A stretch of DNA of 64,000 nucleotides from Blattamonas nauphoetae (lineage: Eukaryota; Preaxostyla; Oxymonadida): NCBI GenBank assembly GCA_033064195.1, contig JARBJD010000025.1:248001-312000 (forward strand), read 5' to 3'. The translations under genes and the position numbers were made by a program. Within the stretch, counting starts at the first letter, position 1. Every line of letters starts with the position of its first letter. Below, piece by piece: positions 37,689-64,000 of the stretch. The notes below the pieces were generated by a model that was not told where the DNA came from, did no database searches, and saw only the letters and a program-made list of their open reading frames with translations.

Positions 37689-38236
37689 TGACAGTTGCAC
37701 TGATATCTCGGAAAGAAAGCGTTAAGTTGGAAAGGCAACTGAAAATGAGAACAGAACTATAGCCCATAAAATGCAATAAGTGACATTTCAGTTCAACAAC
37801 TGCAGAACATCGTCAGTCAAGAACACTCTTGATGTTTAGAAATGATCAACTTTATCCGAAGTTCTCACAAATCACCATCGAATGTGCTTCTTCCACACTG
37901 ATCGCTCGTTGGACTGTGCGAACTACAACAGCGGAACTGACATTCAACCGCACATTCAACAACACCCCAGAAACAGGGCAGCTCTGTATTGACAACAATC
38001 GTGTAATGTGAAGTCAGCTTTCACGAGGGCAACAAGCAAACAGTACATTGTCGATTTGTCGTCGAAAGCTAGGAAAGGTTCATCCCAAAGATGAAAACCA
38101 CGAGACATAAATTATGTCGAGAGACTGTTCATGAGATGGATATTGAGGATGTACGAGAGATGCTCGGTTCTTTTGTACCAATTTGTGGGCTTAACAAAAA
38201 CCCCTCCCGACATTGATCAAATCTCAATCTCGTAAC
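37689..38236. other. Intergenic region with a family A scrap and the 5' flank of the first P gene
   Basis: Bases ~37970-38095 are a minus-strand family A remnant (FDDKSTMYCLLVALVKAD), the last trace of the array. Bases ~38165-38236 match the flanks just upstream of the P genes at 55851 and 61101 (TTTGTGGGCT, CCCTCCCGAC), so this is the junction between the two arrays. Confidence 0.6.
38165..38236 (+). promoter_or_regulatory. Conserved upstream block of P genes (copy 1)
   Basis: TTTGTGGGCT, a variable spacer, then CCCCTCCCGACATTGATCA and TCTCAATCTCG just before the ATG. The same order occurs at 55797-55850 and 61046-61100. Conservation in the diverged tandem copies suggests a core promoter or 5' UTR element. 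Function inferred only. Confidence 0.45.
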
Positions 38237-38879
38237 ATGATTCATCTCATCCTTACAACGTTCTTTAGGCATGGGCACCAGTCACCGGACTCAAACTTTT
38301 CGGACTGACTCGATTTGGCCCTTTTTTTGTGGTTCTTTGAGAGGAATCGTGATTTTGTCGTTGTTGGTGTATTCAATGTGATTGTAATGTCTGAATTACA
38401 TCAATATTTGTGGCAAATGCTTCTCTAATCATTGGATCGGTATGTGAGTTGATCAGCCCTAAATCACTACATGTGACAATGGAAAAAAAAATCATGGATG
38501 TACTGTGACCTTAATTGCTCGCCGACAAAAGAAAACATCATTAAAACTGATTTTGAAAGAAAGTGATGAGAAACGAACATCAGGCATTGCGAAAGAAGCC
38601 GAACAAAGAACGAAGCCGTGAAGTGCTGCCGTGTCTGCGGGTACGGACGAATCACTCACGCCAGCAGATGACACAACAGAGAGCACACGTACAGCGAATT
38701 CATCTCCTGCTTCAGCTTCTCGCTCTGCCCCTCTTCTTCAATTTTGAACGACAGGAGAGGAGACGAGTAGATATCAGTGTAGTCGATGAAAACGATTGAA
38801 GACAAGTTTCTTCGTCCACAAACTCGCCTGTCACCAACATCTCGTGGAGAGATTTCAGTGTGTCGACATTCGTAAAAAG

Positions 38880-40965
38880 TCGCGAGATCAGCGACTGAAC
38901 AAACTTCGAAGGATTGGCAAAAGAATAGAGGAGAAACAGTGCAGACGACGGATCGTCGAACGGATGAATACGATTGCCGTCTTCCTGCTCCTCTTTCTGC
39001 CCGCCAAAACCGACACACGCTTCGCTGGAAGCGCTGACGGTCTCCTCGTCTCATCCCTCCTCTTCTTGCTGTTCTTCGACGTGTTCGTCGACAGATACAG
39101 CGCTGGTTGGTATTCGATGAATCGATGGTCGGCGTAGATGTCGTCCACCTTCTTAAACAGCAGGCTGTGCAGAGCTGATGGCAGGAACGACGAAGGAAGT
39201 CCTTTCGTTGCGGATGTCGCTGGGATCGTCAGCTGGTGAAGTCCACGCAGTGTTGCCAGTGCTATTGGCATTGACACAGGCGGTGTCAGGAAGGACAGCG
39301 CCGCATCGTTCGTTTCCTGTCGTCGTTGCAATCCCCCTGCTGCTCCCTTCCCTCCCAGTGTTCCCGAATGAAGTGTCGACATTTTCTGTCCCTACTCCGC
39401 CGTCACATTCGTCGCAATCACAACCAACTTCGCCGTCACCATCGCGAACGTGAAGGGAGTGCGACCAGACGGTGTGGATTCTCGAACGACACAGCCGCAC
39501 TCGTCGACGCACTGGACGGCGTGATCATCGTCGTGATCACCGAAGGCGAGTTGGCTGCCCTGAAGGGCGTGGTCTGTTGTGCTCTTCTCTCCGACAGCGG
39601 AGATGTCAGAGGACTTTGCGGTGGCGGTGTTAGTTTGGATGAATGGCGCGTCTTCTTGTTTGATTTATCGCGATCGGCTTGTTTTTCGTTTCTTCGGCGT
39701 TCTGTCCAGCTCCAGAACGCTTGATTCGCTTCTTTCCGAACATCTTCGCGATCTGTCTCGCCCCAGATCAGTCGAGGCGTCACAAACGACGAATCATACA
39801 AACACCAAAACGCACCGACATTGATCGGTAGGAACGGTGATTGCTGGATCGTGTTGTTCGCACTGTCCTGAAAGTCAATCATGTTTCCCGAGTTCTTCAG
39901 AGATGCGTTGCTTCGGCCTTTGTGTTTGTCTTCCTTTCGAGAGAGGTGTGTTCACGCGGTCGGAAGATTGATTGCATGATGTCTTCTGATTTTCCGCTTC
40001 CAACCTTCGCAAGCACGTGCTGGCCGGTCTTGTCCTTCAACACGGTGAGCAGAGCGTCTTCTTCAGAGCGGTCTGGAGGGAAGAGAGGGAGGTGAGATTC
40101 ATGAGAACGAAAAAGAGAAAACGATTGGAAGTGAGCTGAGAGCAAAAGTGGTGAAAAACGAAAAAAAGTGAACTTGTACAGAATCAGACCTCCCGTCAAC
40201 GCCAGAAACTCGATCAGGTTGTCCACATCATCGTCCTCCTCACCAACCTTCTTCGCCATCCCGTTTTGATACGTCTGTACCTCTCGCTCCCTCCAAAGTC
40301 TGTCCAACACAACTTCGGCGATCTCGTCCAGATGCATCGATCCGAAAGAGTGATTCCGAGCTTGCGTCGTTTCGATTCCCACCTTCTTCACAAGCGACGG
40401 CTTGAGTTTCATCACTTTCAACACAATCAGCCAGTCCACAAGGTTCGACACATCACTTAAATCTCGCCAACTCCCATCCAGCGAGATGGAGGGTGGTTTA
40501 GTGTAGAAATGGATGGTTGCGTCGAGTTTGTTCGCTGACATTGACATCTTCGGTTCTTGTGGCATCCAAATGGCGCTTTGAGAAGAGGAACTGTATTTGA
40601 ATGTGGGAGTCTGTGTGACGGTGTCTGGACGTTGGGAGGGGATGCTTGAGGCGCGCCGTCCTGTCGAACGGGAAGGTACGGATTTGCCAGCCCTTCACTC
40701 GACTTCACCAGTTACTCCAAGAAGTTCCGAGTTTGGGGCTCTTGGAATTGGAGAGCATACCGACGTTTCAGTTCTCGCACTCCGATACTCGCCACAGCTT
40801 CTCTCACGTGCTATCTGCTCCTTGTCTGTCAGAACCCATGGTTTGATCGGAAGACCTCCCAAAATCGTTTCTGCTTTCTGTTTTGTGTTCGAGTTCGGTG
40901 CTTTTGTCGTGTTGTGGCGGAATTGTGGCAGGAAGTGGATAGAGGATGATGCAGAGGGCGACATG
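38880..40965 (-). pseudogene. Unrecognised multi-exon gene or gene fragment carried by the hAT-like element
   Basis: In minus order: MSPSASSSIHFLPQFRHNTT start (40964), a Ser/Pro-rich part, FKYSSSSQSAIW and MPQEPKMSMSANKLDATIHF, LDGSWRDLSDVSNLVDWLIV, LDEIAEVVLDRLWREREVQT and NLIEFLALTGGLILY. A likely intron follows (about 40070-40190), then SEEDALLTVLKDKTGQHVLA, QSPFLPINVGAFWCLYDSSF and RLIWGETDREDVRKEAN. The LIW..T.RE stretch faintly recalls RME-8/DNAJC13, far too weak for a name. Frames change between parts, so it is either spliced or decayed. Confidence 0.4.
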
Positions 40966-40999
40966 TTAATGTAGAAGAAGTAAGGCGATGAAAGAGAGT

Positions 41000-42400
41000 A
41001 AAGTGATGCCGGCGACAGAAAAACGGCGAAAGAAGATATTTCGGTTCATGCCAAAGTTGCGATGGCGTCAGCTTGGGATGTGGTTTCTGCGGAGTAGATA
41101 GCGGTTGCGTATATTGGATAGGATTCAAAAGCAGAAACGCTGGAGGGAATCACGTTGGATTATTGTTGAAGAAAGGGTGTTTTGTGGACATCAGAAGTTG
41201 GAGAGTCGCTGCCGATGGTTGGCGAGGTTTTAGGCATCAGAGAGAGGGGGGAGAGAAATATACATCCGATTTAGTTGGGCTGGATGAACCGGAGCGGGAG
41301 AGAACATGGCGCGAGAAGCGACTCAGGAATCGATTTGAGAAGATCAGAAACAAATGATTGGCGAGTCAACAGGAAGCAGATATCACGATAATAATCGTGC
41401 AAGTGCACTTCGGATGACTGTCGTGGTTCTGGAATGGGCGAGAAGGCCTCGATATAGAACAACGGGAGGATCCCACTGAAGGACGCCATTTTCTGCTTTT
41501 TTGCATATTTTGAGGTGTTTGGAAAGAAGAAGATGACGTAAAAGAGACAGAAAAGCATAGGTGAACCACAAAAGGAAAAAGATTTCACAAAATACCATTT
41601 CTTGTTGGGATACGAGGAACGATGTGATTAACTGTCAAAATTGAGTGAGATACGTTTCCTGGACAAAATATTGGGACAATATATAAATAAATATACATAG
41701 TTGAGTAGACTTGAAATGGTTGAGGACACAATACTGTCAATAGTCACGAGTGAGACGGTGCTCTGTGTTGTTGGTCCAGAAGAGAGACTGGAGATGTTCT
41801 GAGAATCAAACTTGACTAGAGCAGATCAAGATTGCAAACAGATGTGCCAAACGATGGTTTTGCCCTTATTTTCTCCATAGATAATTTGCGGGGGTGAGTT
41901 GATCCTGAAAGTCAAAATCAGTTTCCTTTTGTCAAATAGAGTGGAAATGAAAAGAAAATCAAAATTCAAACCTTGTCGATTCACGCGCTGAGTTTCAGTT
42001 GAAAAGGAGATCGGACAGTCCAGTCAGTCCGGTGACTATTTGCATGATTGCATGGGCGGATCAGTGACTCAAAGTGACTCGAGATAAAAGTATGGGGTGT
42101 GATGCTGACCTGTGTCTAAATTGGTTTGATTTTTCTGAAAATGAGTTGAATTCTAAAAAATAGTGCGAAATGTGAAAGAAACACTACGAAAAGCGATTGA
42201 TAGAGGATGGAGATTGTGAATGTGTTTTTGAGAGGAATATCCCAGGATATTGAGGTGATTATCAAGACTGCTGCGATGTCCGATTGGAAGTGGGACATTT
42301 TGGGTCTGGATTCCTCATGTTTTGGACTTATGGGGGTGAGTCACTGACTCGATTTTTTTCGGTGACTGGACTCGGTCATTCTTGACTGTCTGTTGCCCAT
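41000..42400. other. Right part of the hAT-like element without a clear gene
   Basis: A minus-strand frame at 41271-41588 has hydrophobic and globular parts (DYYRDICFLLTRQSFVSDLL) and may be another cargo exon. From 41640 the DNA is AT-rich. At 41990-42400 it holds repeated AGTGACTC/GTCCGGTGAC motifs, probably subterminal transposase-binding sites. Confidence 0.4.
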
Positions 42401-42740
42401 GCCTAACGTTCTTTTTCTCGGCCAACTGCACTCTCATGGGCAGGGACCTGAGAAGGATCTGATCGATCAGACCTTCATTGATCAGACCTAATTTTTGTTC
42501 TTAACAAACTGTTTCATTAAAAGAGAGTTTACTTTCGAAAAAAACTGTGAAATGAGTCTAATCGACCATTTGAGAGGCTATCTGGTCATAATTGATTGTT
42601 TATTGGTTGAATTGAACTGGTACGATGAAGAAAATGAAGTGAGTAATTGGAAAAAGAGGAAAATCGATATTCTTAATTAGGAAACGGATCAGACCCCCAC
42701 TTCTGTGAGGTGTGATTACCTTGGGTCGGCATGTCCTCCC

Positions 42741-42779
42741 CCGAAAACCCGTGTCCTATCATAGGACACGGGCTTTCGG
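42741..42779. repeat. Hairpin of TTACC element copy 1
   Basis: Two 19-bp arms around one central base, built on CCCGTGTCCTAT / ATAGGACACGGG, with one mismatched pair. It lies 25 bp inside the left end. The same structure occurs in copy 2 with compensating changes in the outer arms. Confidence 0.9.
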
Positions 42780-44087
42780 AGCTTAATTAGGCGATGGGAG
42801 GGTTTTGTCTACAAAGCATGAAAATGATGTCAAATAAAGTGGTACCCTTTGATTTGAAACACAGACTACATTTTCACATCCATTTTGGATGAATTAGATA
42901 CGAAAAGGGTGGCTGAGATTTGATCAGATCTGTCAAAATGATTATGGTCCGATCAGTGTCGTGATTCGACAAAATACATTTCTTTCATCACAAACATCAC
43001 ATGATGGAGAAATTTACATGACAGAAGTGGGAAATTGATGAATGTGAGATCAGGGATAGTCCAGATGAAAGAGATCAGAGCCACCAACAATGCAGATTGT
43101 ATCTCAACATGTGCAACGGCTATTTCACTCCAATGGTCAATGGTGTCTTTTCTCTGCCTCCACTCATCCTCTTCTTACGCTGGGCCATTTCCTTCGTCTC
43201 CTTCACACACTTCTCCGTCGGCACCTGTGATCGCCTCAAGTTTGTCGGTTGTACGATCTCGCTCAGATAAGCCGCGAAATTAGTCGGAAGTGAGTGTGAT
43301 CTGTCTAATATTCTCGTCGAGCTACGGTGGAGTAGCGTCAGGGTGCGGAATGACGGGATGAGTGTGATTGGTTTGGGATTCTGCTTAATCTCCCTTGTCT
43401 TGTTCAACATTGTCTTTTTCAGTTCGCTTTCCTTCTTTCTGTCCTATTTCTGTCGTTGTTAGTTTGTTCTCCGCATCACTGAGCCCTTCCGCCACTCGTC
43501 TTTTCGCATGCCTCTTCGCCTCATTCAAACATCTCCTTCACCCTTTACCACATCCCCCACTTCACCCACACCTTCCACACTGCATTTTTGGTCATTGCTA
43601 GTTAAAATCGGCAACAAGTGTCCCAATGTGAATGCGGCGTTGGAGAGTGTGTTGATTCCTTTTCATCCCTCCTCCAAGGCAAAGCGAGATTCTTAGCATT
43701 TCTTTCATTTCGTTGGATTGGTACTGAAGAGGGTGAATATGAAGAGAGATGGCGGAGACCAGCAAAAGTGCAAGATGACAATATGGTGGAGCGAGGAATA
43801 AAGGAGCTTGTCGAGGAAGAATAACGACGGCCTCTAAAAATGACTCGGAGCGAGGAATACAGACTGAACCTGTGTATGTTGAATTGTCAATTCAGTCAAG
43901 GAGAGAGGCGGATTGATCTTGGGGGTGATCATGTGAAACAAAGAGACTTATCGGATGGCAATACGAATGAGGCGTATTCGTTGCAATTGGAGAGTGTAGA
44001 TGAACACGATCTGTCGAGAGAAGCTGATTTAGACAAGGTTTGCGTTGGTAAACTGGAGATGAGTCGGATCGAGACTTTGGGGTCGAG

Positions 44088-45038
44088 CTACGGACTGTCC
44101 GGAGAGACGTGCATTTTTGTCAACAATATTGTGTGTAAAGCTTCGTTTGGTTGGTTCTTTACGACGAGAGATGACTCTTGTTGTGAATGAAGAATTGACG
44201 ACGAAGGTTTGGGAATCTGATCTTTTGATGTGGCCACGGACAGGATGTTTGTAACAGACAAATTCCAAAGATTGAACATTGGTTTCATTGAATCAGTCTT
44301 GCTGTGAAGAAGATCCGACGGCGACGATCCGAAGAAGTGTTGGATGTGATCTAATACGAAAAAGAATAACCAAAAAGTGATTGAAATGGAAAACACACAG
44401 GTCGGGCCGGAAGATAAAGGAAACCGTTTGCAGTTTGGAGAAGTGAGGCTCTGGCGTTTCGAATTGAAATGATGTGACAAAGTCATGGTCATAGTGTCTC
44501 TTATATGTCGATAGAAAGAAGTAATTGAGCAATAACGGGGTCTGAATAACCAAGGAGATCATTGTGACGAAGCGAAGGGGGAGGAAGGAAGGATGAACTG
44601 AAGAAATGATGAGATCATGAGAAGATGGACGGAGGAAGTGGTTCATAAAAAATTGAGTGGTAATCAGATGATGAAAGGAATATAGGAAGAGGGAAGTCGC
44701 ACACTTCGATTTCCGAACACCCATTAAACCCCACATATGTTGGCGATGTCGAAGGAGCCTCGGTTGAGTTGACCATCATGGCTGATGAGAGAGAAAAGAG
44801 GGAGGCAGGATGGACTGAAACGAAAGAGAAAAGAAGAGGGGAAGAGAAGTGCTTCAGAATGAGAAGAGGTCAAACTTTCTTTCTGTTGGGGGTGTGTACT
44901 GGCTAGAACCCGACTCAATGGTTCTTTCGAGGATGCCCTCTGCTTGTATCCCATCTGAATCTTTCGCTTTTCTTGTTCATTCCAATCTCTTTCCCAGAAC
45001 GTCTCAGCAGGACTATCATGAAGGGGTCTGTCATCCAT
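44088..45038 (-). CDS. Possible cargo ORFs of TTACC element copy 1, unrecognised
   Basis: Frames at 45038-44724 (MDDRPLHDSPAETFWERDWN), 44736-44293 and 44492-44088 follow each other on the minus strand and could be exons of one gene joined by short introns. The 44736-44293 part is hydrophobic in places (HFLVILFRI; LVIQTPLLLNYFFL), suggesting membrane segments. No domain is recognised, and it may be decayed. Confidence 0.25.
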
Positions 45039-46320
45039 CTCTCCCTTCTATTCTTCTTCATCCTTTCTAGTATTGTGATCCTGTCATCAACTCAAATTAT
45101 CTTTTCTCTTTGAATGTTGCCTTTTCAACCCTCTCCAACAGGTCTTCCTGTCTCTTGTGGAACTTCTTGTCTCAATTGAGGAATCTATTCTTGATCAAAT
45201 CATTTAGAGAGGTAAATATGATGATAAACAATACAATAAGAGCAGACTTGTCCCTTCATTTACTCAACTTTCTTCTTAGTTCGGATTCTTCAGTGGTCAT
45301 CTCAATCACAAGATCTGTGGTCTAAAACATGAGAGTGAGAAAAGTTTATTTACAATAACGAGAAAAGAGCAGACAGGGTTCATCTCCGAACCAGTCTCCA
45401 GACATGAAAGTGTCATTTCGATGATTTGAGTGGGCAATTACCAAAATGTTGGTTTGATAGGACAGATCTGGCCACCATAGGACACGATAGGACAGGACAG
45501 GACAATTGTCCTCCCTCGATTTTATTGCGAAATTGTGATGCAAGTATTGTGAATGCGTCAAATACCTTCCATGTCCTATGGTTTGAGCCCGATTCAGAAT
45601 TGTCCTATCGTGTCCTATGGTGGGCGGATCGACCCCGTTTGTACAATTTTCGCTATTTTTATCAAAATAGGGTGACAAAACACAATAAAAATGATTTTAA
45701 AACAGAAAATGTGCATTGTTATCTCAACTTTCTCTTCATTTTTCGTTTCAGGTTTTCACTGACAGATGAGGCAAGGGACAAGTTCAATTCTTGTCATCGG
45801 TACTTTTATCCAAATTGTCCTCCTCTTTTTTGCTGTCCTGTAGGACAGGACAAGTAGGACATGCCGACCCAAGGTAAAGGTGTGATCCAAGATCACACCT
45901 CATACAGTAAACTACAGACCTGATCAGGTCCCTGCTCATGGGCAAGTGTTGACTTGGTGGGCCACAAGTGATCGAGGTGTGTCTCGACCTTTTGTTCAAC
46001 TATACCGTCCTCTCATCACAAAAGGTTCCATATAGTGATGAGAACATCTGTTTGTCAAACTTTCGATGATAGTGTCGAGATCGTCTCCACGAATTCCAGG
46101 AGTGGTTGATCATGACTGTTGAGAGCGATTGGTGAACACTATCACTTCAACTTTTCGCTTTCTCGGTTCATTTTACTCTTTTATCCGTCATTTCATCCAA
46201 ATTTTTCAATAAATTTTGTTTGATTATTGTTTTCGGTGAAGTGACGGAATGGAACAGCCGAACCAGCAACACACCAAAAATCAGATCACGCTCGATTACC
46301 ATGGGTCGGCATGTCCTCCC

Positions 46321-46359
46321 CCAAAAACCCGTGTCCTATGATAGGACACGGGTTTTTGG
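46321..46359. repeat. Perfect hairpin of TTACC element copy 2
   Basis: 19-bp arms CCAAAAACCCGTGTCCTAT and exact complement, one central G. The outer arm differs from copy 1 (CCAAAAA versus CCGAAAA) on both sides, so pairing is kept while sequence changed. Confidence 0.9.
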
Positions 46360-46844
46360 CGCTTACTTAGGCGTTGTGAAGATTCTGTTGATAAAACATG
46401 GAGATGATGTGAGAGGATGTGTTTTGAATTGGAAAAGAGTTTAAGACATTGTTTTAATGTGTTTTCAGGTGAATTGAAAGCAAAGAAGGAGATTCGGGGA
46501 AGATCGACAATTCAAAAAAAATGAAGGTCCGATCAAGATCATTTTTCGTTAAAGGACACGAATCTGACCACTTTTCTCACATAATTGAGAAAATACAAGA
46601 AAGAAATGTGGTTTTAATGGATGTACGATGAGACAAACACCGGATTAGAGTGAGGATGAAGTTGACACAGATTTTGCATCTCTCTGGCCGCTTTACCACT
46701 CCATTTGTCGATTGGACAATAATTCTTTGTGAATGAGACGACTACTTAAGGCGAACATGTTTGCTCCTTGATCGCTTCAGGGAAAACGAACTTGTCTCTG
46801 GAAGAGAGAGATTCGCTATTCTCACATCAATATGTTGTCCTCAA

Positions 46845-48207
46845 TCAAAATGTATTCACGCATGTATCATGTAGATCGCTATTCTTAGGAGAGATATCTT
46901 CATTTTGAGAGCTGTGAGGAAGAGGAGTGAGGTGTCGCACTGATGCCAAATCTGGGGGGAGATGGAGAGAATGAGACAGAATAACATAAAATATGAAAGA
47001 GGAGATGAGAGTAAAAAGCAACAAAGACGAGAAAGGCAAAGTAGCGAGTGAGGAATGATGAAAGAATGGTAAGCAATCTGAATCGACTTCAGACACAGAT
47101 GTGCTTTCTTTCAAGGACGATCCAGAATCCATCATCCACATACGTGCGAATAAGGGCAGCGAGGTAGAATAGAACTCCTTGGATGACAGGTTAGTGAAGA
47201 TTGACATCACTCCCAGCAACACGAGCAGGATCTGACCAATTTGGAAGGAATGAAGGAGCTGCGAGAGGAGAGAATAGAGGAGAGTGAATAGGAAGATGAG
47301 GAGGGAAAGAGAGACAAGAATCATGAAAGCGAGATCATCGTTCAAAATGGTCCAAAAATAGATCAAGAGTCCAAATACACAAAACAAAGAGCATACATCG
47401 TTCCCTCTCGTCCATCTTTCCTTCTTCCTCCCCAAAACACAGCAAAGCACTCCCATGAGAAGCACAATCGCCCTGTGTCACACATCTTCAAATATATTCG
47501 CAAAAAGGGAAATGCCACTAAAGTGGACGGCGTGGGGTTGATATCTGTCCATGCCAGCGTTCCAGACGAATTGATCAGTTGCTCCGGCGCGGCCGTGGAC
47601 GCATTTGTTCTGATCAGAGTTAACGGAATTGTCAGTTCGACAGGAAGTGTAATGATCGTCCCGTTCTCCAAAATGTGTGTTCTGTGGATTGTTCCTCCAT
47701 CTGAAGTCGCGGTACGAAGTGAACGGTGGTGTCGAAAGCGGTCTTCGTGGTTTGTTCCAGAGTGTCCACAACAACCGAAATCATTCGCTCACTCACCTAT
47801 ACTTCTCCCAAAGCCGTTTGGGACGAATAATCGACGATAAAGCGGCTGAGAGTGGAGTACTGGCAGAGGGAGGAGGTGATAGCTTCGTCGAATGTTGTGA
47901 GAGGCGGGAAAAACGAGGCAAGAATGGTTTCGATGTGACGGAGGGAGTGGGAGAACATCTGATGGAGAGAGGGAGAGAAAGAAGCAATGAAAACAGCAAC
48001 AGGAAGGAGAACGTGAGTTGAAAGAAGTCGAAATCCAGAACTAACTTTTCTCCATCCACAAACTTCCTCGTTCATCCGTCGCTTCTCCACTGCCTTTCTA
48101 AGCGTCTCTTGCACGTGATTGATGATCGCGGCAAGACTGCGTTCTCCTCCTTCATTGAATGAAAATTGTCTCGCGTTGTACGACAGACACAGGCGATTGA
48201 TGGTCAA
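46845..48207 (-). CDS. Multi-exon membrane-protein-like gene carried by TTACC element copy 2
   Basis: Probable exon 1 starts MTINRLCLSYNARQFSFN (48207) and ends VCGWRK. A GT-AG intron joins it to MFSHSLRHIETILASFF and FIVDYSSQTALGE. A further exon holds GTIHRTHILENGTIITLPVE, TSNAS-like and NSSGTLAWTDINPTPS segments, similar in style to beta-helix surface proteins. The last part (47465-46845) has several membrane helices (FMILVSLSLLIFLFTLLYSL, ILLVLLGVM, LLLFTLISSFIFYVI) and ends CVNTF. A surface protein with a membrane tail is my best guess. Exon borders are approximate. Confidence 0.4.
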
Positions 48208-49703
48208 GAATGAATGCTGACCAGAAAAGATGACCAGAAAGACTGCCTTTGGGGGTTGGGACGGAAAGAGAGTGCGTCAGGAGAGATGAAATTGAAGTCT
48301 AGAATCAGAAGTCGGAAAATCGATCAATTGTCAAGAATAAAGATATAAAACCGAAGTATTCCGTTTTGGAGCCAATAGATACTCAAACAAGACATTTCCG
48401 CGGAGAGAGATCATCAGAAGGCGATGGAAAATGCCCAACACACCCAGCGACACTATACCCGCGATAAACCTGAAACAAAGATAAATTCAAGAGGATGACG
48501 GATGGAAGAGGGAATGGGAGTAAGATGAACCCATGAAATTGAGGAGGCGAGACGAGCCGTAGACGGGAAATCTCATGATCTCCTCCAAAAAGACGAGATG
48601 AGAAAAACCAATCGAAGAGAAAGAAGAGATACCTCCGAGAAGTCTATATCCCTTCTCTCACATACTGTACAGTCAGAACACTTGCCCTTGAGAAACAACT
48701 GAATGAACTTGTTCGTTTGGTGGTGGTTCTCCATCAGTTCGATAAAAGCATTTAATTTCCATGTCCATTACTGCTCGGAGTATCTTAGGAATGTCTTGGA
48801 TGAATGCTGGTCTGTTTGTTCAATCATTATCCCTTTTCTTTCGATCAGTTCATTTTTCGTATCGAACAAGAGTTCAATCTCGAAGACATAGAAGAGAACG
48901 AGATCAAGAGGATGACAATAACATAAAGAATGGAAATTGGCAGACAGTTCAGTGGAAATATCACAAAATCTTCGGTAGTCTCAATTTGCATGATGAAGAC
49001 GAGATCTATTCGCATTGAATCGACATTAGAAAGAAAAGAAGAGAATAAAATACAAAGTGAGAGTGAATAGAGTTCTTCATCTTCTCATGTGTCGTTTAAC
49101 TTCGATCATTCCACAGGACAGCTCGACCTTGAGATTCACTGTCTAAAACAGAAGAGAGAGTAAAGAATGACGATAATCACGAGAGAAGAACATGCAAGGA
49201 ACCTTGATCACTCAGTGTGCATTGATAAGAATGTCATTTCGCTGATCTAAGGTCAGTATGATAAAAATGATGGTTTGATAGGACAGATCGAGCCACCATA
49301 GGACACGACAGGACAGGACAGGACAATTGTCCTCCCTCGATTTTATTGTTAAATTGAGACGCAAATATTGTGAATGTCTCAAAAAGCTTTCATGTCCTAT
49401 GGTTTGAGCCCGATTCAAAATTGTTCTATCGTGTCCTATGGTGGACTGATCGACGGCTTTTGGACAACTTTCACGATTTTCATCAAAATAAGGTGAAAAA
49501 ACTCTATTGAAATGATTCTAAAACAGAAAAGATGTGTAATAGTCCTGTTTCTTCCCTCATTTTTCATTTCAAGTTCTCTCCTTCTGACGAAGCAAAAGGT
49601 TGGTTCAATTCTCTCCATCGGCATTTTTATCCAAATTGTCCTCCTCTTTTTGGCTGTCCTATGATGTCCTGCCTATAGGACATGCGGACCCATGGTAAAC
49701 GCT

Positions 49704-49781
49704 CGACGCTTGCGTGGTGCAATCGGTAGATCGCCCGCTTTGAAAGCTTGAGGACGCGGGTTCAAGACCTACCAGCGTCCT
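49704..49781 (+). tRNA. tRNA-like sequence, anticodon TGA (Ser) by position, imperfect fold
   Basis: Acceptor strands GACGCT (49705-49710) and AGCGTC (49774-49779) pair fully. A D-loop-like GTGCAATCGGTAGAT follows. The anticodon arm is CCCGC-TTTGAAA-GCTTG with two mismatches, and the T-arm holds GGTTCAAGACC, a good polymerase III B box. A run of eight T follows at 49783, a Pol III terminator. The variable loop is short, unlike normal tRNA-Ser, and the arms have mismatches, so it may be a decayed or tRNA-derived sequence. GAGGACGC/GCGTCCTC (49750/49775) gives an alternative hairpin. It lies inside the 6-bp-TSD element. Confidence 0.5.
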
Positions 49782-49838
49782 CTTTTTTTTCTCAACTTAG
49801 ATTTTTTTGGCCCACCAACTCGACATTTGCCCTCTCAT

Positions 49839-51175
49839 GTTCCTTGAATTCGGAGGGATCAGCAAGACCTGTCTGACAGCCGATACAGCGTGTCATTCAC
49901 TAGATCAAGCTGTGAAACATGTAAATTGGGAAAACGTCAATTATATCGCAATTCTTGGGCACGCTGAATTGATTGGGGAAGTAACCTTCGATACTAGTGC
50001 TGATAATTTCCAAACGACACCACCTGGAGATGTCACAATCGAAATGTGTCTCGGTGAGCATTTCCTCAGCTCCAACACTGACCACTACGGTCTGACTGGT
50101 ATGGGAACAATTAAGATCAAAGGCACGAGCAACGCAAAGATGACCCTCACTCTCTATTCGAATGTGTCTGCTCCACCGACACCCGGATTTGTGATCTCCA
50201 CATCTCGCACGCCAGACGGGACAAAGAAAGATTATGTGTTTCGTGTGGAGCAGTACGGTGTTCTTGACATAACTCGCTCGCTTTTTGTGCTACCTCTTCA
50301 ACTCCTGTCATACACAACATTTACGAAGCTGACGTCGAAGTTCGAAACCGAACCGTGGGACCAAAAGTCTGCAGCAATCATTGTTAACCAAGGAACGATA
50401 AAAATCGCGAACTTCGTCGAAGTGACTGACCCAGAGCTTGGAGTTCTGATTCTGAAGGACATTAACACCACAGAGTCCTCCGTTGTCCTTCTTCAAGACA
50501 GTGCCACTTCACTAACCAGCCTTGTCCCAAAGGGAATTGTGTGTTCGATCCCAGAGAATGCCACGAAAACATTCAACATCCGAACTTTTTTGTCTGGAAT
50601 ACAACGCAAGGAGGGTCTCGATCTTGTTGAAATCGACCAATATCCACTCGACATCCATCTTTCTGGGAAATGTGCTGTTTATGATTCTGAGGATACAACC
50701 CAGAAGTTTCCTCTGAACAACACGGACATGACAAACATCTCCAAAGCAGCCTTTGTCTTCCCCACAGTGACACTCACCCGTTCGAACCTCAAATTTGCCA
50801 CAAAAACAGGCAGCCAATCGAGTGAACTTGGCAACTATCTTCTTGCCGAATTCACTTCCCAAACAGCATCCCTGGGCGTCGCCGCTCTTCGCCGGCTGAA
50901 AGTGAGCGTTGCTCCTCGCTATCACACCGAAGACGTCGACGACAAGTTGATTCGCTGGGACGAGATGACGTGGTACGTTGGTCAGACGTACTCAGCGATT
51001 GAAAATGGAGGAGTGACGATCAAACAATCAGGGCAGTCAAACTACGCTGTGGCAGCCGTGCCTCGTGCAAATGTGGGGATCAGTGGGGAATACACAGTGA
51101 AGATGGAATTCGATGACCAAGTGAGATATGTCGGGTGTTTGTATTCTGGAGCACGAAAAACAGTTGCCTTCACAT
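49839..51175 (+). CDS. Main body of P copy 1 (probable beta-helix surface protein lacking its ends)
   Basis: About 445 codons, open throughout. Repeated short strands such as LTGMGTIKIKGTS, LGVLILKDINTTESSV and KAAFVFPTVTLTRSNLK suggest a right-handed beta-helix or similar adhesin fold. A conserved C-terminal domain follows, with RYHTEDVDDKLIRWDEMTWY, VTIKQSGQ, YAVAAVPRANVGISGEYTVK and VRYVGCLYSGAR. The open frame continues into flanking elements on both sides, giving false N- and C-termini (MAHQLDICP... and ...GHTFSFA). Two conserved Cys lie in the N-terminal KTCLTADTAC motif. Confidence 0.75.
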
Positions 51176-52034
51176 GGGTGATTATTTTTCAAAAGTTGCT
51201 GGCGTCATATTTTTGTGTTAGTCTGGAGATTTGCCGAACCTTTCCCATAGTCGACATATTCCCCTTCAATCAACACACTGAAGGTTTTGTACATTCATTC
51301 ACCGATTCATCCACTCTTTTCACTCAGATTTCAACTGGCGGTTACCCCTCTTCGCCAATTCTTGGACATACCTTCTCATTCGCGTAAGATCAGTGTTGGT
51401 ACACTTCTTTTGATGTGAACCAACATAGTGTCCATTGCTCATTCTTTTTCATCTTCTCTCTCCAAAGTCGATTTTCAACAGTCTTCCAGACAACTTCGAG
51501 ACTTGTCATCTCACTGATTAAAGTCATAATCTGGTATTTTCAGATATTCTCCTTCATGTTTTGAGTTTTGTTCAGATGATATTGTTCGTCTCGTCCTGGA
51601 ATCAACAAGTGTTTTCTGTTCATCCTCCCTTTTAGATACTATCCTTCAAAACTGATTTTCCTTCACCAATTGACATCAAACAAACCATCCTGACATGTTC
51701 AGATTATTCCAAGGCGATACTACTCGTCTCGAGCGATTGAGCACTGAGATGCTTTTCATGGTTTTTTGAATGATTTGTGCATTTATTTCACTTTTTGCTA
51801 ATGTATCCGTTATTTTTTAGCGTTATACACCACTTCTTGGTTTTATGACGTGTATTGTATCAAAAAGTGTGTCAATTTGTGCTGGTGAAAAAATGGTCGT
51901 CTCAAACGCGATCAAAACAGAATTCACTCAATTTATGGCTCATTATCTCTTTAAGCCTGTAACTGTTAATTAGGCAAAAAATAGTTTTTGGTGACGCTCC
52001 ATAGTGTTTTGCAACCTTTCAAAAATAATCTCCC
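51176..52034. mobile_element. TIR element, 859 bp, inserted in the P1 hydrophobic-tail codons
   Basis: Left end GGGTGATTATTTTTCAAAAG and inverted right end GGGAGATTATTTTTGAAAGG; similarity continues with GTTGC. Target repeat ACAT at 51172-51175 and 52035-52038 (CACAT is also possible). The AT-rich inside has no gene; the P1 frame reads 200 bases into it by chance. Superfamily open. Removing it restores FTSLALLLAVLLGF. Confidence 0.8.
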
Positions 52035-52076
52035 ACATCGCTTGCTCTTCTGCTCGCTGTACTGCTTGGATTCTAG

Positions 52077-52420
52077 ACTCTCACAACGATGAACTCTGCA
52101 TCATGCTTTGGAAGATCAGAAATTTCTCAAACAGAATTATCTTTACTTACAGACACCTTTTGTCTTCCTCATTTCTCTGATCCATAGTTTCTAACTTCAT
52201 CAAAAAAGGGTGAACCGAAGTGATAAGAAGACGAATCATCTGCCAAGAAATGTAGAACCTACAGCTGCAGTTTTCTGACACATAAAACCTCAAATTTCCG
52301 CCTTGTCCATGAGATAACAAATTCTTCGTGATGAAATATTGGAAAAATTCGCAAAAGTCGACATGTGTTCACAAACGATTCTGACAACTATTTGTTATGG
52401 CTCGATCAAATTCATCTTTC
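52077..52420 (+). other. Intergenic region between P1 and SPRY1, repeated at 57288-57662
   Basis: Shares CAACGATGAACTC after the P stop and CCTCATTTCTCTGATCCATA, then TGAGATAACAAATT..TTC before the SPRY start, with the matching region of unit 2. It probably holds the P 3' end signals and the SPRY promoter. Nothing else is seen. Confidence 0.5.
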
Positions 52421-53838
52421 ATGCTTTCACCAACCCAACAGGTGCGATCAGTCTTCTCTTCTTTTCACACCCTGTGTTCGCCTCTCCACTCATTAGAATC
52501 CCGACAACTCAAAAATCATCGAAAACGATGAGAAAGTGTGGATCGTGTTTCTCACGTTCCCTTCGTCACTCTCGTTCTTTCCTTCCTCTCATCCATCTTC
52601 TCTTCCATTCCATAGAATCATTCAACAATCGAGTCAGTGTTGGAATGGCTGAGTGATTCGTCTGTCCATCCAAGAATCAAAGTCAACACAATCCAGTGGT
52701 TCCACATTCCCACTCTCCTCGCCAATTTCATCCAACCATCACATCCACACCAACACGAACAGGAACAAGATCAACAAGACCCCAACCAACTACACAAACA
52801 ACATGAACAACAAGATGAAGAGCCAGCACCATCAGCAGAATCGAACAATCAGCTCCTCACTCAGCTCCTCCAAGCTCTCACCAAGTTCCTCGACCAGTCC
52901 TCCGATTCTCACACTCCAATCCCAAACAAGCGACTCCTCCACTCCTCTCTCTCCCACCTCTCCCCATCTCCCGCTCTCACTCTTTCCATGCGGAGAGAGA
53001 TCGACAGGTGTCTCGTCGCTCTCAACTACGTCGACGACAGTTCATTCGCTGAACAGAAACAGCAGCCAGCGGATCAGACACAGCTGGAGCGAGAAGTGAC
53101 GATGATGCGAGCCGACAAGGACGCGTTTGTGTCGACCGTGATCTCGCTGCAGAAAGAGAAGGACCAGCTGCGAAGCGAGTTGACGAGCACGAAACAGAAA
53201 CTGGAAGAGATGGAGCGGAGACTGACTCAGACACAGCAGACCATCGAAGCGAGACCAAATGCTGTCATTGAACGAACAAAACCTGTTGTGGCGTCTGATG
53301 TCATCGTCGCGTTCAGTCCGATTCACTTTAAACTGAGTGGTTCGACTGTTACACACATCAGTGGGGGCTGGGTCAGTTGCTTCACAAAGCCTGTCTCGAA
53401 AGGCATCCATCGACTGTCCATCAAATCTTCAGAAAGTGTTGGTGTGTCTGTCCTTCTTTCGTCATCTCCGTTCTTTCAGCGTTTGGTGTGCTTGAGCCTT
53501 CCGAGGTTCCAAAATACTTGACCACAAATGTCTTCGCTTCTCCCAAAGTGGCGATGATGCAGAACAGTGGATTTCTCCTGTCCGCTGGCAAAAAGCTTGT
53601 TCAAAATACAATGCCTCATGCAGGGCAGGAGTGGTCGGCGGAGGCTGATTTGGAGAAGAGGACACTCCATTTCTTCCTCGATGGTGTCCAACAGCCACAC
53701 CACTTCATCGACATTCCTGTCCCTCTCGTCTTCGCTATTGATGTCTTCTCAGAGAATGGTCCGATTGAGATCACGTTTTGGGGGGAGTTAAACCAGTCAA
53801 ATGTGACATTTCAAGGCACTGGACACAATCTGGGATGA
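52421..53838 (+). CDS. SPRY-like coiled-coil protein, copy 1 (414 aa, four exons)
   Basis: Exons 52421-52441, 52497-52535, 52616-53441 and 53480-53838; introns are GT-AG of 55, 80 and 38 nt. The total is 1245 bases with frame kept. MLSPTQQ + NPDNSKIIENDEK + NHSTIESVLEWLSDSSVHPR. Then come a Gln/His-rich linker, a helical region, a coiled coil (MMRADKDAFVSTVISLQKEK, KQKLEEMERRL) and a SPRY-type beta domain (VIVAFSPIHFKLSG, GVLEPSEVPKYL, GQEWSAEADLEKRTLHFFLD, IPVPLVFAIDVF, ITFWGEL). The SPRY part suggests protein binding. The start was chosen because it is conserved and in phase in both copies. Related SPRY domains occur on oxymonad kinases; none is seen here. Confidence 0.75.
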
Positions 53839-54099: not shown

Positions 54100-55782
54100 T
54101 TAAAGCGAGCATTTGAGAACGGCAGCCTGGACACGGGAGAGAGACTCCTTGCTCACTCCTTCCAACATTTCCTCGTTTTTCAGTTCTGTCGTCTGATTTC
54201 GGATCGACACGTTTGGAGTGATGTGTTTGAGTTGCGAGCCAGCTGGTTGTTTGAGTTTCATGCTCGCTTTCATGACAGACGGAGAGTGAGACAGATCTGA
54301 CGACAATGTCACTGGTTTTCCAGATGTCCGCGTGTTTTGGAGCGTGCTCGACGGTGAGACTGGATTGGACGTTCGTGGGACCATTTTGAGTGGCTTGTTT
54401 TGAGGCAATGTCGGATTTTGGGATCCTCCAGCGATCATTCCTGGCTGGTTCTGTTGAAGCCGAGGAGGAGGGGGAGTTCGACTGAGCTGTCCAGCGGGCT
54501 GGGAATTTGGGTTGAGCGATGCTCGCCACGATTGGTTGGGTGGAGTGGCAAGAGCGGGCGGTGGATCAGATCCGATGTCTTCCATCGCTGACTTCAGCGC
54601 AGAAGAGAGTGAAAAGGAACTAGCTGCTGTACCTGGCTGAACAACAACATTGGCTGGTCGTGCTTCACTTCCTGTGTGTGTTATTCGACCTGTAGTGGAC
54701 TTGACTTGACGCGATGGGCTCGCACTTTCAGCACGAGGTCCGACGACTTGAGCAGAATTCAGAACGTATTCCGATTCTGGGCTCTTCGTCTGGAGCAGTT
54801 CCCACACTCGTCGGCCAACCAGCGCGATCAGTCGGACGATGAAGTCCTTTCGTCGGTCTTCTTCTTCCAAGTCCAACATCCACCAATCGTTTTGCGTCAC
54901 AATCTCAACCAGATAGCGGCCTTCATAATCTCCCACTGAGTATCGTTCGGCGTCTTTCATGTCATCTGATGATGGTTGGGGATCTGGGGCTGATGATAAT
55001 TGATACAGTTCCAGCTGCTGACGAACGTCGTGAGAGGTGAAAGAAAGAATAGTATTTTGGTTGTCTCCATTCCTGGATTTAGGGCCAACCACACTCACTT
55101 TCAGCGGAACGAGACGAAATTCAGATCGGATCTTCAGATGCTTGCTGAAGGTCGTTTGTTTTGTGACCAGACAGTAGTCTGAAATACATATATAAAACAG
55201 AAGTTGATTGTAAGCAGTCTTCCCCACACTCAGCATTTCTGCTTGAAACACGAAGATTCTGGAAGGCTTCACGAGTTGATATTCGGCTGGGATGAGCTTC
55301 TCCTGGATCTCAAACACTTTGTCCAGTCTTTCCTTTCGATGAACACTTTCGTCCACGAAAGCTGCTGTTTCTTGCATCACATTGGCGGCTGCGTGGATGG
55401 GATCATAATCAGGATGCGAAGGCCAGGTATTAGCGGCCAAGTCGTGAAGCATCATGTTGTATCGAGGGATGCGCTGAATCGGGCGAATAAGAAAGGATTC
55501 CAAAGGCTGACCACCGACTTCGGGATTGGCGGATGCATTGGAGACAAAAGAGCAGAATGCTTTTTTACTCTTCATTCTCTGTTGGAGAATGTCGTTGTCT
55601 CTGTCGTAATTCTGACAGTATTCCACGTAGAGTTTGAGAAAAAGAGCATTTCGTGTGTGGAAATGAAAATTGAGAAGAATTGCATTGGAGACATTTTTGG
55701 GGATGTGAACACCGAAAACCATGAGACACAACAAAGAGAAACTTATTGAGACTGATACTGAAGATAGACAAGTGTCGGCCAT
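54100..55782 (-). CDS. RhoGEF (DH-PH) protein, copy 1, probably N-terminally truncated (560 aa)
   Basis: Residues ~30-150 are the C-terminal half of a DH domain: VSNAILLNFHFHTRNALFLK, LYVEYCQNYDRDN and the signature ESFLIRPIQRIPRYNMMLHDL. Residues ~170-320 form a PH-like domain (PSRIFVFQAEMLSVG, ISDYCLVTKQTTF, EIVTQNDWWMLDLEEEDRRK). The tail is Ser/Pro-rich with PPPPRLQQNQPG and ends LSRVQAAVLKCSL. It would activate Rho-family GTPases. The first DH helices are missing; the N-terminal ~40 residues differ completely between the two copies and may be non-coding read-through, so each may be a 5'-truncated copy. Confidence 0.75.
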   Translation of the reverse strand: MADTCLSSVSVSISFSLLCLMVFGVHIPKNVSNAILLNFHFHTRNALFLKLYVEYCQNYDRDNDILQQRMKSKKAFCSFVSNASANPEVGGQPLESFLIRPIQRIPRYNMMLHDLAANTWPSHPDYDPIHAAANVMQETAAFVDESVHRKERLDKVFEIQEKLIPAEYQLVKPSRIFVFQAEMLSVGKTAYNQLLFYICISDYCLVTKQTTFSKHLKIRSEFRLVPLKVSVVGPKSRNGDNQNTILSFTSHDVRQQLELYQLSSAPDPQPSSDDMKDAERYSVGDYEGRYLVEIVTQNDWWMLDLEEEDRRKDFIVRLIALVGRRVWELLQTKSPESEYVLNSAQVVGPRAESASPSRQVKSTTGRITHTGSEARPANVVVQPGTAASSFSLSSALKSAMEDIGSDPPPALATPPNQSWRASLNPNSQPAGQLSRTPPPPRLQQNQPGMIAGGSQNPTLPQNKPLKMVPRTSNPVSPSSTLQNTRTSGKPVTLSSDLSHSPSVMKASMKLKQPAGSQLKHITPNVSIRNQTTELKNEEMLEGVSKESLSRVQAAVLKCSL

Positions 55783-55850: not shown

Positions 55851-57287
55851 ATGATGCATCTCATCATTACAACGTTAGTTTTATCTGCCAACTGCGCTCC
55901 CATCTTCCTTGAATTCGGTGGATTGAACAAAACGTGCCTGACAGCCGAAACAGCGTGTCATTCTCTTGATCAGGCAGTGAAGCATGCAAATTGGGAAAAT
56001 GCGACTGATATATTAATTCATGGGCACGCCGAATTGATTGTAGAAGTCCACTTCGATTCAAGTTCTGATAAGTTCAAAAAGACTCCTTCTGAAGACATCG
56101 CCTACGAAATGACACTCAACCACCATTTCCTCAACTCCAATACTGATCACTTCGGTCTGACTGGTCTGGGAACAATTAAGATCAAAGGCACAAGCACCAC
56201 GAGGATGACCCTCTCTCTCAACTCCGACTTTATCCATCCCACTTTACTCTTCCCGATCTTTGTGATCTCCACAACTCGCACGCCAGGCGGTGAAAAGAAA
56301 GATTATGTGTTTCGTGTGGAACAATATGGTGTTCTTGAAATTCTAACCCCACTTCTTGTGCGCCCTCTTCAACTCCCGTCAACGACGACATTCACGAAGC
56401 TGACGTCAAAGTTTGAGACCGAACCGTGGAATAAATAATCGGCAGCCATCATCGTTGATAAAGGAGCAATAAACATGGGGAACTGGGTCAGAGTGTATGA
56501 CCCAGAACTTGGTGTTCTGATTCTGAAGGACATTGACACCACAGAGTCTGCCGTGGCCGTTCATCAAACCTTTGCCACCTCACTCACCAGCCTTGTCCCG
56601 AAGGGAATTGTGTGTTCTATTCCAGACAATGCCACGAGCACATTCAGAGTCCACATCGGTGACGCTGGAAAAAAACGCAAGGAGGACGACAAACTTGCTG
56701 GAATCGACCAATATCCGCTAGACATCCATCTTTCTGGCAAATGTGCTGCTTTTGACATTGAGGATTTTGTGGACGAGAAGTTTCTTCTGAACAACACGGA
56801 CATGACAAACATCTCCAAAACTGCCTTCGTCTTCCCCAAAGTGACACTCACCCGTTCGAACCTCAAGTTTGCCGCAAAAATAGGCGGCCAATCGAGTGAC
56901 CTTGGAAACTATCTTCTTGCCGAATTCACTTCCCAAAAAGCATCCCTGAGCGTCGCCGCTCTTGACCGCCTGAAAGTGAGCATTGCGCCTCGCTATCACA
57001 CCGAAGATGTCGACGACAAACTGATTCGCTGGGACGAGATGACGTGGTACGTTGGCCATAAAGACACCGAGATTGAGAATGGAGGAGTGACGATCAAACA
57101 ATCAGGCCAATCATCTTATGCTGTGGCAGCTGTTCCGCGAGCAAATGTGGGGATCAGTGGAGAGTACACAGTGAAGATGGAGTTCGATGACCAGGTGAGA
57201 TATGTCGGATGTTTGTATTCTGGAGCACGAAGCACAGTTGCCTTCACATCGCTTGCTCTTCTGGTCGCTGTGCTGCTTGGATTCTAA
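55851..57287 (+). pseudogene. P surface protein, copy 2, with one premature stop
   Basis: The frame runs 479 codons but has a TAA at 56436-56438, after ETEPWNK, where the sisters read KSAAII. The same frame continues undamaged. Signal peptide MMHLIITTLVLSAN, then FLEFGGLNKTCLTAETACHS, GLTGLGTIKIKGTS, YVFRVEQYGVLEI, GVLILKDIDTTES, APRYHTEDVDDKLIRWDEMT, CLYSGARSTVAF and the hydrophobic tail TSLALLVAVLLGF, which fits a GPI-attachment signal or short anchor. Probably a cell-surface beta-rich protein. A recent nonsense change or sequence error. Confidence 0.75.
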
Positions 57288-57662
57288 GACAATTGCAACG
57301 ATGAACTCCAAATCGTATTTCGGAGGCTCAGATCCACTTTCATGCTGTGAGAATGTCGAATCTCTCTCAACCGACTTCTTCGTTTATTTCGGGCATCTTT
57401 TGCCTCTTCCTCATTTCTCTGATCCATAGTTTCTAACTTGATCAAAAATAATGATCGGAAACGGTTAGAAGACGATTCTCAAGCCGAGAAATGGAGAGGC
57501 TCCAGTGGTAGCTTCTCAACTCATCACCTCTCTTATCTCTGCCTTGACCATGAGATAACAAATTGTTCATTATGAAATATTTGTTAAAATCCTCAAAAGT
57601 CGACATGAATTCACAAACTATTCTGATAATTGTTTGTTATGGCTCGATCAAATTCATCAATC
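57288..57662 (+). other. Intergenic region between P2 and SPRY2
   Basis: Tandem counterpart of 52077-52420; no gene. Contains TGAGATAACAAATTGTTC shortly before the SPRY start, shared with unit 1. Confidence 0.5.
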
Positions 57663-61032: not shown

Positions 61033-61045
61033 TGACTAGTCACAA

Positions 61046-61100: not shown

Positions 61101-62541
61101 ATGATTCTCCTCGTCCTTACAACATTCGTTTTTTTCGGCCGACGGTGATACAATCTTCCTCGAATTCGGTGGCATGAGCAAGACGTGCCTGACAGCCGAA
61201 ACCGCCTGCCATTCACTTGATCAAGCGATTAAGCAAGCAAATTGGGAAAATGTGACCTCAATCTTCATCGAAGGCCATGCTGACTTGATTGGGGAAGTTG
61301 TTTTCGATTCAAGTGTTGATAATTTCAAAAAGACTCCTTCAACAGACATCCAATTCAAAATGAGACTCGGTGAGCATTTCCTCAGCTCCAACACTGACCA
61401 CTACGGTCTGACTGGTCTGGGAACAATTAAAATCAAAGGCACAAGCACCACTACGATGACCCTATCTCTCTCCTCAGACATTCCACATCCCACTTTTCAC
61501 AGTCCAGCATTTTATTTATCCACCTCAAGAACCCCCAGCGGTGAAAAGAAACATTATGTGTTTCGTGTGGAGCAGTTTGGTGTTCTTGACATTCAAACCC
61601 TGCTTTTTGTGCTCCCTCTTCAACTCCCGTCAACGACGACATTCACGAAGCTGACGTCGAAGTTCGAAACCGAACCGTGGGACAAGAAATCAGCAGCGAT
61701 CATCGTTGAGAACGGGACGATAATAGCCAACAACCCGGTGTTTGTGTATGACCCAGAACTTGGAGTTCTGATTTTGAAGAACATTCACACCACAGAATCC
61801 CAAGTGGCCATTGTTCAACCCTTTGCCACTTCGTTCACCAGCCTTGTCCCGAAGGGAATTGTGTGTTCGATCCCAGAGAATGCACCGAACACATTCAAGA
61901 TCCTAAGTTTTTCTTCTGGAAAAGAACGCAAGAATTCGAGTGATGATCTTGTTGGAATCGACCAATTTCCACTCGACATCCATCTTTCTGGGAAATGTGC
62001 TGCGTACGATTATGAGGATTTTGTGACTCAGAAGTTTCCTCTGAACAACACGGACATGACAAACATCTCCAAAACTGCGTTTGTCTTCCCCAAAGTTGAA
62101 CTCTCCCGCTCGAACCTCAAATTTTCCACAAAAACTGGCGGCCAATCGAGTGACCTTGGAAACTATCTTCTTGCCAAATTCTCCTCCAAAACCAACTCCC
62201 TGAGCGTCGCCGCTCTTCGCCAGCTGAAAGTGAGCATTGCACCTCGCTATCACACCGAAGACGCCGACGACAAGCTCATTCGCTGGGATGAAATGACGTG
62301 GTACGTTGGAAGAATCGAGACGGAGATGAACGAAGGAGGAGTGATGATCAAACAATCGGGTCAGGCGGACTATGCAGTTGCAGCTGTTCCGCGAGCAAAT
62401 GTGGGGATCAGTGGGGAGTACACAGTGAAGATGGAGTTCGGTGATCAGGTGAGATATGTCGGGTGTTTGTATTCTGGAGCACGAAAAACTGGTGCCTTCA
62501 CATCGCTTGCTCTTCTGCTCGCTGTGCTGCTTGGATTCTAG
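61101..62541 (+). pseudogene. P surface protein, copy 3, frame-shifted in the signal peptide by a T7 run
   Basis: The body is open from 61174 (MSKTCLTAETACHSLDQAIK) to TAG. The conserved ATG at 61101 gives MILLVLTTFVF, but the run of seven T at 61129-61135 puts the following SADGDTIFLEFGG in another frame; six T would restore it. All other landmarks are normal: GLTGLGTIKIKGTS, YVFRVEQFGVLDI, GVLILKNIHTTES, APRYHTEDADDKLIRWDEMT, CLYSGARKTGAF and SLALLLAVLLGF. Either a homopolymer sequencing error, a real mutation, or a switchable tract. Confidence 0.75.
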
Positions 62542-62981: not shown

Positions 62982-64000
62982 TTAGAATCCAAGCAGCACA
63001 GCGACCAGAACAGCAAGCGATGCGAAGGCAACTGTCTTTCGTGTTCCAGAATACAAACACCCAGCATAGCTCACAGCGCCATTGAACTCCATCTTCACGG
63101 TGTATTCCCCACTGATCCCCACCTTTGCACGAGGAACAGCTGCCACTGCTTTACCACCTTGTCCCGATTGTGTGATCGTCACTCCCCCTTCGTTCATCTC
63201 CGTCTCGATTGATCCGACGTAAAACGTCATCTCGCGCCAGCGAATCAACTTGTCTTCAACTTCTTCGGTGTGATAGCGAGGCGCAATGCTCACTTTCATT
63301 TGCTGAAGGATTTCGACATTCAGGGAGTTGTGTTCGGACGTGAACGTGGCGAGAAGTTGGTCTCCAGCGTCGTTCAGCTTGCCGTTTGATTTGGAGCTCA
63401 TTTTGAGGTTCGAGCGAGAGATGGCAACTTCAGGGAACTGAAACTCGTTCGATTTGATAGTTTTCACGTCTGTTTTGTTCAGACGAAACACCTTGTCTTT
63501 GTCATCTGAATCATACGCAGCACACTTGTCAGTGAAATGGAAGTCCAGAGGGTACTGCTCAATTGACACGATTTTGCGGTTCCAGTCCGTCAGTACGTTT
63601 CCAGCTCCAATAATATTGATGTTGAATGTTTCTGTGGTTGAATTTGGTATCATACAATAGACACCCTTCGGGACAAGGCTCGTCCGTGATGTCATGTTCA
63701 CGTGATAAAGCGTAACGCTCGATTTCTCAATGTCGATGTCCTTAAGAATCAGAACACCAAGTTCTGGATCAAGGACGGCCAAGTTCATGAGTGATGATAA
63801 CATATTCGGGATGACCAACGCTCCTTTCTCAACGACGATCGCTGCCGATTTCAGATCCCATTCTTCCGTTTTGAACTTCGGCGTCAGCTTCGTTAATTTT
63901 GTGGTCGTCGGAACTTCAAGTGGGTGCACGACAAGCGCGGACATCAGTTCAAGGATACCATACTGTTCCACACGAAACACATACTCCTTCTTTACGCCGC
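62982..64000 (-). CDS. P surface protein, copy 4, divergent, N-terminus outside the window
   Basis: Open from the window edge (GVKKEYVFRVEQYGILELMS) to TAA after the tail SLAVLVAVLLGF. Landmarks: GVLILKDIDIEKSSV, LVPKGVYCMIPN, YPLDFHFTDKCAAYD, RLNKTDVKTIKSNEFQFPEV, APRYHTEEVEDKLIRWREMT, YVGSIETEMNEGGVTITQSG, AAVPRAKVGISGEYTVKMEF and CLYSGTRKTVAFAS. It is clearly more diverged than copies 1-3 from each other, but keeps the C-terminal block and hydrophobic tail. It is transcribed towards copy 3. About one third of the protein is missing here. Confidence 0.8.
   Translation of the reverse strand, partial: GVKKEYVFRVEQYGILELMSALVVHPLEVPTTTKLTKLTPKFKTEEWDLKSAAIVVEKGALVIPNMLSSLMNLAVLDPELGVLILKDIDIEKSSVTLYHVNMTSRTSLVPKGVYCMIPNSTTETFNINIIGAGNVLTDWNRKIVSIEQYPLDFHFTDKCAAYDSDDKDKVFRLNKTDVKTIKSNEFQFPEVAISRSNLKMSSKSNGKLNDAGDQLLATFTSEHNSLNVEILQQMKVSIAPRYHTEEVEDKLIRWREMTFYVGSIETEMNEGGVTITQSGQGGKAVAAVPRAKVGISGEYTVKMEFNGAVSYAGCLYSGTRKTVAFASLAVLVAVLLGF

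Follow-up and report, generated by a model that had tools for sequence, protein, structure and literature searches.

Probable recent insertion of TIR DNA transposons into a surface-protein gene of the oxymonad Blattamonas nauphoetae

The interrupted gene and its inserts

Blattamonas nauphoetae is an oxymonad that lives in the cockroach gut. A stretch of 64,000 nt of its genome, called the window here (C168:248001-312000), was analysed within an assembly of 88.3 Mb in 837 contigs. The published genome, assembled by Canu from Nanopore reads, has similar figures: its description, based on Nanopore and Illumina reads, gives 88.5 Mb, 879 contigs and 25,221 predicted genes (PMC10703272). The window contains a surface-protein gene whose coding sequence is divided into four pieces by inserts totalling 12.4 kb, each bounded by exact target-site duplications (TSDs; Table 1).

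The first-pass annotation had proposed that the four pieces make up one open frame, and that the inserts are six elements with terminal inverted repeats (TIRs) and exact TSDs. Both proposals were confirmed. The pieces add up to 29+24+1337+38 = 1428 nt, which is divisible by 3, and belong to one gene. When each piece was searched separately with tblastn, pieces 3 and 4 were collinear with intact paralogs (matches at 49837-51210 and 52038-52073, the final 35 nt of the former extending into element D), while pieces 1 and 2 gave no tblastn match to the paralogs and were both assigned by eye. The flanks match sister loci on both sides: 38119-38266 upstream matches 60984-61130 at 76%, and 52034-53000 downstream matches 57245-58241 at 86%. 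The predicted B. nauphoetae protein BLNAU_4987 matches the translation of the main coding piece at 100% identity.

Table 1. Coding pieces, inserted elements and sister copies, in window positions
Feature	Position	Strand	Description
Coding piece 1	38237..38265	+	Start codon and first codons, signal-peptide region
Coding piece 2	42414..42437	+	Read by eye
Coding piece 3	49839..51175	+	Bulk of the predicted beta-helix ectodomain
Coding piece 4	52039..52076	+	C-terminal hydrophobic tail, stop codon
Element E	38266..42405	+	4140 bp, TIR TAGGCATGGGCA.../...TGCCCATGCCTA, hAT-like
TSD of E	38258-38265 (left), 42406..42413 (right)	+	ACGTTCTT, 8 bp
Element A	42441..45934	+	TIR CAGGGACCTGA / TCAGGTCCCTG; inserted at the left edge of B
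TSD of A	42433-42440 and 45935-45942		CTCATGGG, exact, 8 bp
Element C1	42716..45877	+	Nested in A; ~3.16 kb, TIR TTACCTTGGGTCGG, TSD AGGTGTGA
Element B	45941..49831	+	TIR GGCAAGTG.../...CATTTGCC
TSD of B	42431-42438 and 49832-49839		CTCTCATG, exact, 8 bp
Element C2	46295..49698	+	Nested in B; ~3.4 kb, TIR TTACCATGGGTCGG, TSD ACGCTCGA
Element D	51176..52034	+	859 bp, TIR GGGTGATTATTTTTCAAAAGTTGC, 4-bp TSD ACAT
Sister copy	55851..57287	+	In-frame stop at 56436-56438
Sister copy	61101..62541	+	One-base frameshift in a T-run near 61129-61135, N-terminal region
Sister copy (L065)	62985..64000	-	Open from start to end; continues past the window edge

The six elements are E, B, A and D, which lie in the gene, and C1 and C2, which are nested; the middle 7.4 kb consists of two adjacent elements rather than a single insert. 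The TSD is 4 bp long for D and 8 bp for E, A, B, C1 and C2 (that of C1 was read separately from the sequence). The order of insertion can be read in part: A and C2 followed B, and C1 followed A. Terminal inverted repeats are present in E, A, C1 and C2. The four longest ORFs of E gave no Pfam match and no transposase was found in E; neither these four nor three ORFs of C1 and C2 matched a hAT transposase in Pfam, and for this reason E, A, C1 and C2 are labelled hAT-like only, non-autonomous at most. A tRNA-like stretch at 49712-49786, within the right end of element B, was noticed by eye and is reported by neither ARAGORN nor Rfam.

Two other ORFs in the window contain tandem repeats. One, at 266-2650 (+), encodes 794 aa that include a Phage_integrase (tyrosine recombinase) domain, and has 84-bp repeats at 1196-1529. 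The other, at 18812-20620 (+), encodes 602 aa, and a 24-bp unit is repeated 27.5 times within it at 19904-20559.

Copies of the elements elsewhere and the age of the inserts

All copy counts given here for the elements are lower bounds. E has at least ten other near-full-length copies at 99-100% identity, and D has at least 26 others at 93-96%, of which two are incomplete at one or both ends; with partial matches included, the listed genomic matches number at least 42 for D and at least 70 for E. C1 has at least five near-full-length relatives at 99% and C2 at least one at 99%. The part of A outside C1 has partial genomic matches at 84-97%, and the left part of B has relatives of up to 93%. 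An exact 4-bp TSD was found at 22 of the 26 D boundaries read, the window copy included, and an exact 8-bp TSD at 8 of 10 E copies. For A, C1 and C2 one site each was read, and the 8-bp TSD was exact.

Some copies were set aside. Five D copies (L016, L028, L032, L033 and L034) have incomplete ends in the match and were excluded from the boundary reading, as was E copy L048, whose match begins at position 116, from the E set. Four more D copies (L017, L035, L036 and L037) have no TSD at the set boundary and were excluded from the frame test described below, which kept 22 of 26; L035-L037 form an 85% subfamily of D whose right end was probably set wrongly, and L017 was retained in the D divergence table. 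The copies are not all independent: the D pairs L019/L030 and L025/L029 have common flanks, and E copies L044 and L046, the two lacking a TSD, have a common left flank.

E carries 0 private substitutions in its 4140 bp among 10 full-length copies, and differs from copy L039 by 0 substitutions and 6 indel columns. D carries 2 private substitutions in its 859 bp among 22 copies, a count that copies outside the sample could change. The D copies L011-L015, which lie on five different contigs, do not differ from one another. A further 46 differences of the window D from the majority are each common to some other copy, and 13 sites are shared with L009 alone; the history of D is thus a mosaic.

The chance that a frame of this length would stay open without selection was also estimated. 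Substitutions that create a stop make up 146 of 4005 (3.6%), and the rate of frameshifting indels was assumed to be 0.12 per substitution. Under these conditions a 1428-nt frame remains open with a probability of 0.89, 0.64, 0.33 and 0.11 at 0.05, 0.2, 0.5 and 1% divergence. Taken with the near-zero private divergence of E and D, these odds mean that the open frame needs no selection after E and D inserted. The suggestion in the first-pass annotation that the insertions are very recent is thus supported for E and D, the two that can be dated. The nearest relative of B is 93% identical. B could predate E and D, since A and C2 must postdate B and C1 must postdate A, and a frame still open over that longer time would be less expected.

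The placement of the copies relative to reading frames was also evaluated. After the flanks were joined, 4 of 22 D copies (the window copy, L014, L024 and L031) lie inside open frames of at least 1000 nt, compared with 24% of points drawn at random from the flanks and 33% of those drawn from the window; with mispaired flanks, the joined-frame length reaches 1413 nt at the 90th percentile. Reading frames thus hold no excess of D copies, and 22 copies, among them two pairs with common flanks, do not show a depletion either. By the same measure 0 of 10 E copies lie in such frames, the window E being scored outside a frame despite lying in the gene because only 24 nt separate it from the next insert. 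Of the three D-interrupted genes outside the window, the two checked, at L031 and L024, both belong to large families, the first with 2765 candidates in the genome (141 scored) and the second with 1248 candidates (86 scored; the nearest other among these at 35% identity). Five minus-strand ORFs in the window, at 5944-7005, 13627-14805, 24614-25735, 29403-30494 and 34334-35428, belong to the same large family as the L031 gene.

The surface-protein family

The two sister copies on the same strand in the window are both damaged, which the first-pass annotation did not mention, and the frameshift in one of them sits in a T-run, so it could be a sequencing error. Across the stretches examined, 28 family loci or fragments were counted. 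Thirteen are open from start to end, and the remaining 15 are split, stopped, shifted, truncated or fragmentary. One of the 28, L063 (C35:1-7500), is probably a second version of L050; it is a near-copy that differs from L050 mostly by gaps, and its sequence, at the start of a contig, is probably unpolished.

Inserts also divide two further family members. At L050 (C374:38800-47200), a C-type element related to C1 and C2 ends just ahead of about codon 12. Farther along, open pieces are separated by two inserts with inverted ends, one near residue 103 and one near residue 405; the first codons of this copy were not seen in the stretch read. At L049, on C365, a 6.3-kb insert with a 9- to 12-bp direct repeat lies at about residue 341, and the first 14 codons were not found within 0.8 kb upstream. 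Different elements have thus entered this family repeatedly and at different sites, which is what one would expect of a redundant family where transposons are active in the genome.

The family was under constraint before the inserts arrived. Piece 3 has a median dN/dS of 0.36 against intact paralogs, and pairs of intact paralogs have 0.33 (78 pairs, range 0.27-0.56). The nearest paralog of piece 3 is at a dS of about 0.41, so this ratio reflects the long period before the insertions and not the time after them. Constraint acted on the gene before the insertions.

Two RhoGEF-domain genes, at 54100-55782 (-) and 59350-60825 (-), alternate with the surface-gene copies. The similarity of the flanks points to a tandem repeat unit.

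Explanations and comparison with known systems

The best reading of the locus, to which we give a probability of roughly 0.87, is recent, plain transposition of TIR DNA transposons into a redundant surface-protein gene. The gene would have taken four such insertions, B, then A on the edge of B, plus E and D, and C1 and C2 would have landed within A and B. A and B would also be young, and the elements would have been mobilised by transposases encoded elsewhere, of hAT type for those with 8-bp TSDs. As the gene reads in the assembly, production of a full-length protein from it is very probably impossible; the gene would not be expressed, and all cells would carry the inserts. The coding pieces would be clean mainly because the datable inserts are very recent, with too little time for decay, and loss of the gene would be tolerated because paralogs remain. 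Against this explanation stand L050, where inserts likewise lie between open pieces of a gene, the possibly greater age of B, and the mosaic history of D.

Transposition and a working gene could coexist if the assembly represents one haplotype or subclone and an empty allele persists in the culture under selection. The absence of substitutions between E and L039 is compatible with an insertion young enough to segregate, but the assembly holds no second, empty copy, and the best other near-full-length match is 75% identical (a collapsed allele would escape this comparison). The terms 'ploid' and 'haplo' are absent from the accessible text of the genome paper (PMC10703272). We consider such an allele unlikely. 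Splicing of the inserts as introns, in the manner of introners, is extremely improbable. Oxymonads are described as intron-rich (PMC1501061), and TIR elements with TSDs can act as introners (PMC9860276), but no GT-AG pair was found at the frame-restoring junctions among all choices at E, A+B or D. The sequence of E already argues against splicing, as no in-frame GT/GC-AG pair lies near its ends; near the ends of the others, one in-frame candidate for A+B and three for D passed a stop check that covered only about 40 codons. D has one AT...AC junction pair, which by eye has no further U12-type match, and a splice-like pair of any kind, on either strand, occurs in three of the 37 insertions read (26 D, 10 E and A+B), each time as AT-AC or its complement.

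The first-pass annotation had also raised a means of removing the inserts precisely, as in an IES-like system, in which they would be cut from the DNA in an expressed stage or nucleus. The exact TSDs and the otherwise open frame would fit this, as would the presence of several inserts in one gene and of a second such gene at L050. Against it, the inserts are multi-copy transposons with differing TSD lengths, so that a single mechanism would have to remove both 8-bp-TSD and 4-bp-TSD elements exactly; the other copies of D and E are spread over the genome with no enrichment in frames; both same-strand neighbour copies bear a stop or frameshift; and for E and D youth alone accounts for the open frame. 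With no exact GT-AG splice either, the proposal is unsupported, and we regard programmed excision as very unlikely. Equally doubtful is a silent reserve, in which surface genes filled with transposons would occasionally be restored by exact insert removal or by gene conversion from a paralog; its split but otherwise open members would be the window gene and possibly the C374 copy.

Plain, recent transposition would mean that non-autonomous DNA transposons have been active recently in an oxymonad genome, where identical or near-identical copies lie at different sites, and that a multi-copy surface-protein family offers them a tolerated landing ground. The locus also calls for caution: recent transposition by itself predicts that the frame around the inserts is intact, so such a frame would count as evidence for programmed excision only together with reads.

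Three known systems invite comparison. Like the IESs of Paramecium, the B. nauphoetae inserts interrupt a gene and their exact removal would leave an open frame. The target of a Paramecium IES is bounded by TA, whereas the duplications here are ACGTTCTT, CTCTCATG, CTCATGGG and ACAT, 8 or 4 bp long. Paramecium IESs are unique-copy sequences, over 90% of them shorter than 150 bp, and their excision, under nuclear dimorphism, is carried out by PiggyMac, a domesticated piggyBac transposase (PMC3464196). D and E, at 859 bp and 4140 bp, are neither short nor unique in copy. The piggyBac transposase profile PF13843 gave 0 matches in the genome, but it gave none in the 14 control genomes either. Introners are likewise transposon-like insertions in genes with TIRs and TSDs (PMC9860276), but E, A+B and D have no GT-AG pair placed for exact removal, and, of the copies tested, 18 of 22 for D and all 9 others for E lie outside frames of at least 1000 nt.

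The third system is the hAT superfamily in its Ac/Ds-type, non-autonomous form. D, with its 4-bp TSD, is not hAT, and B has an 8-bp TSD but the end sequence GGCAAGTG, which is not typical of hAT; the transposase domain is missing from the seven E and C1/C2 ORFs tested. E, A, C1 and C2 share with the superfamily the 8-bp TSDs and short TIRs that are typical of hAT, and hAT dimerisation domains are frequent in the B. nauphoetae genome, with 61 matches, of which 17 lie in open frames of 600-895 aa.
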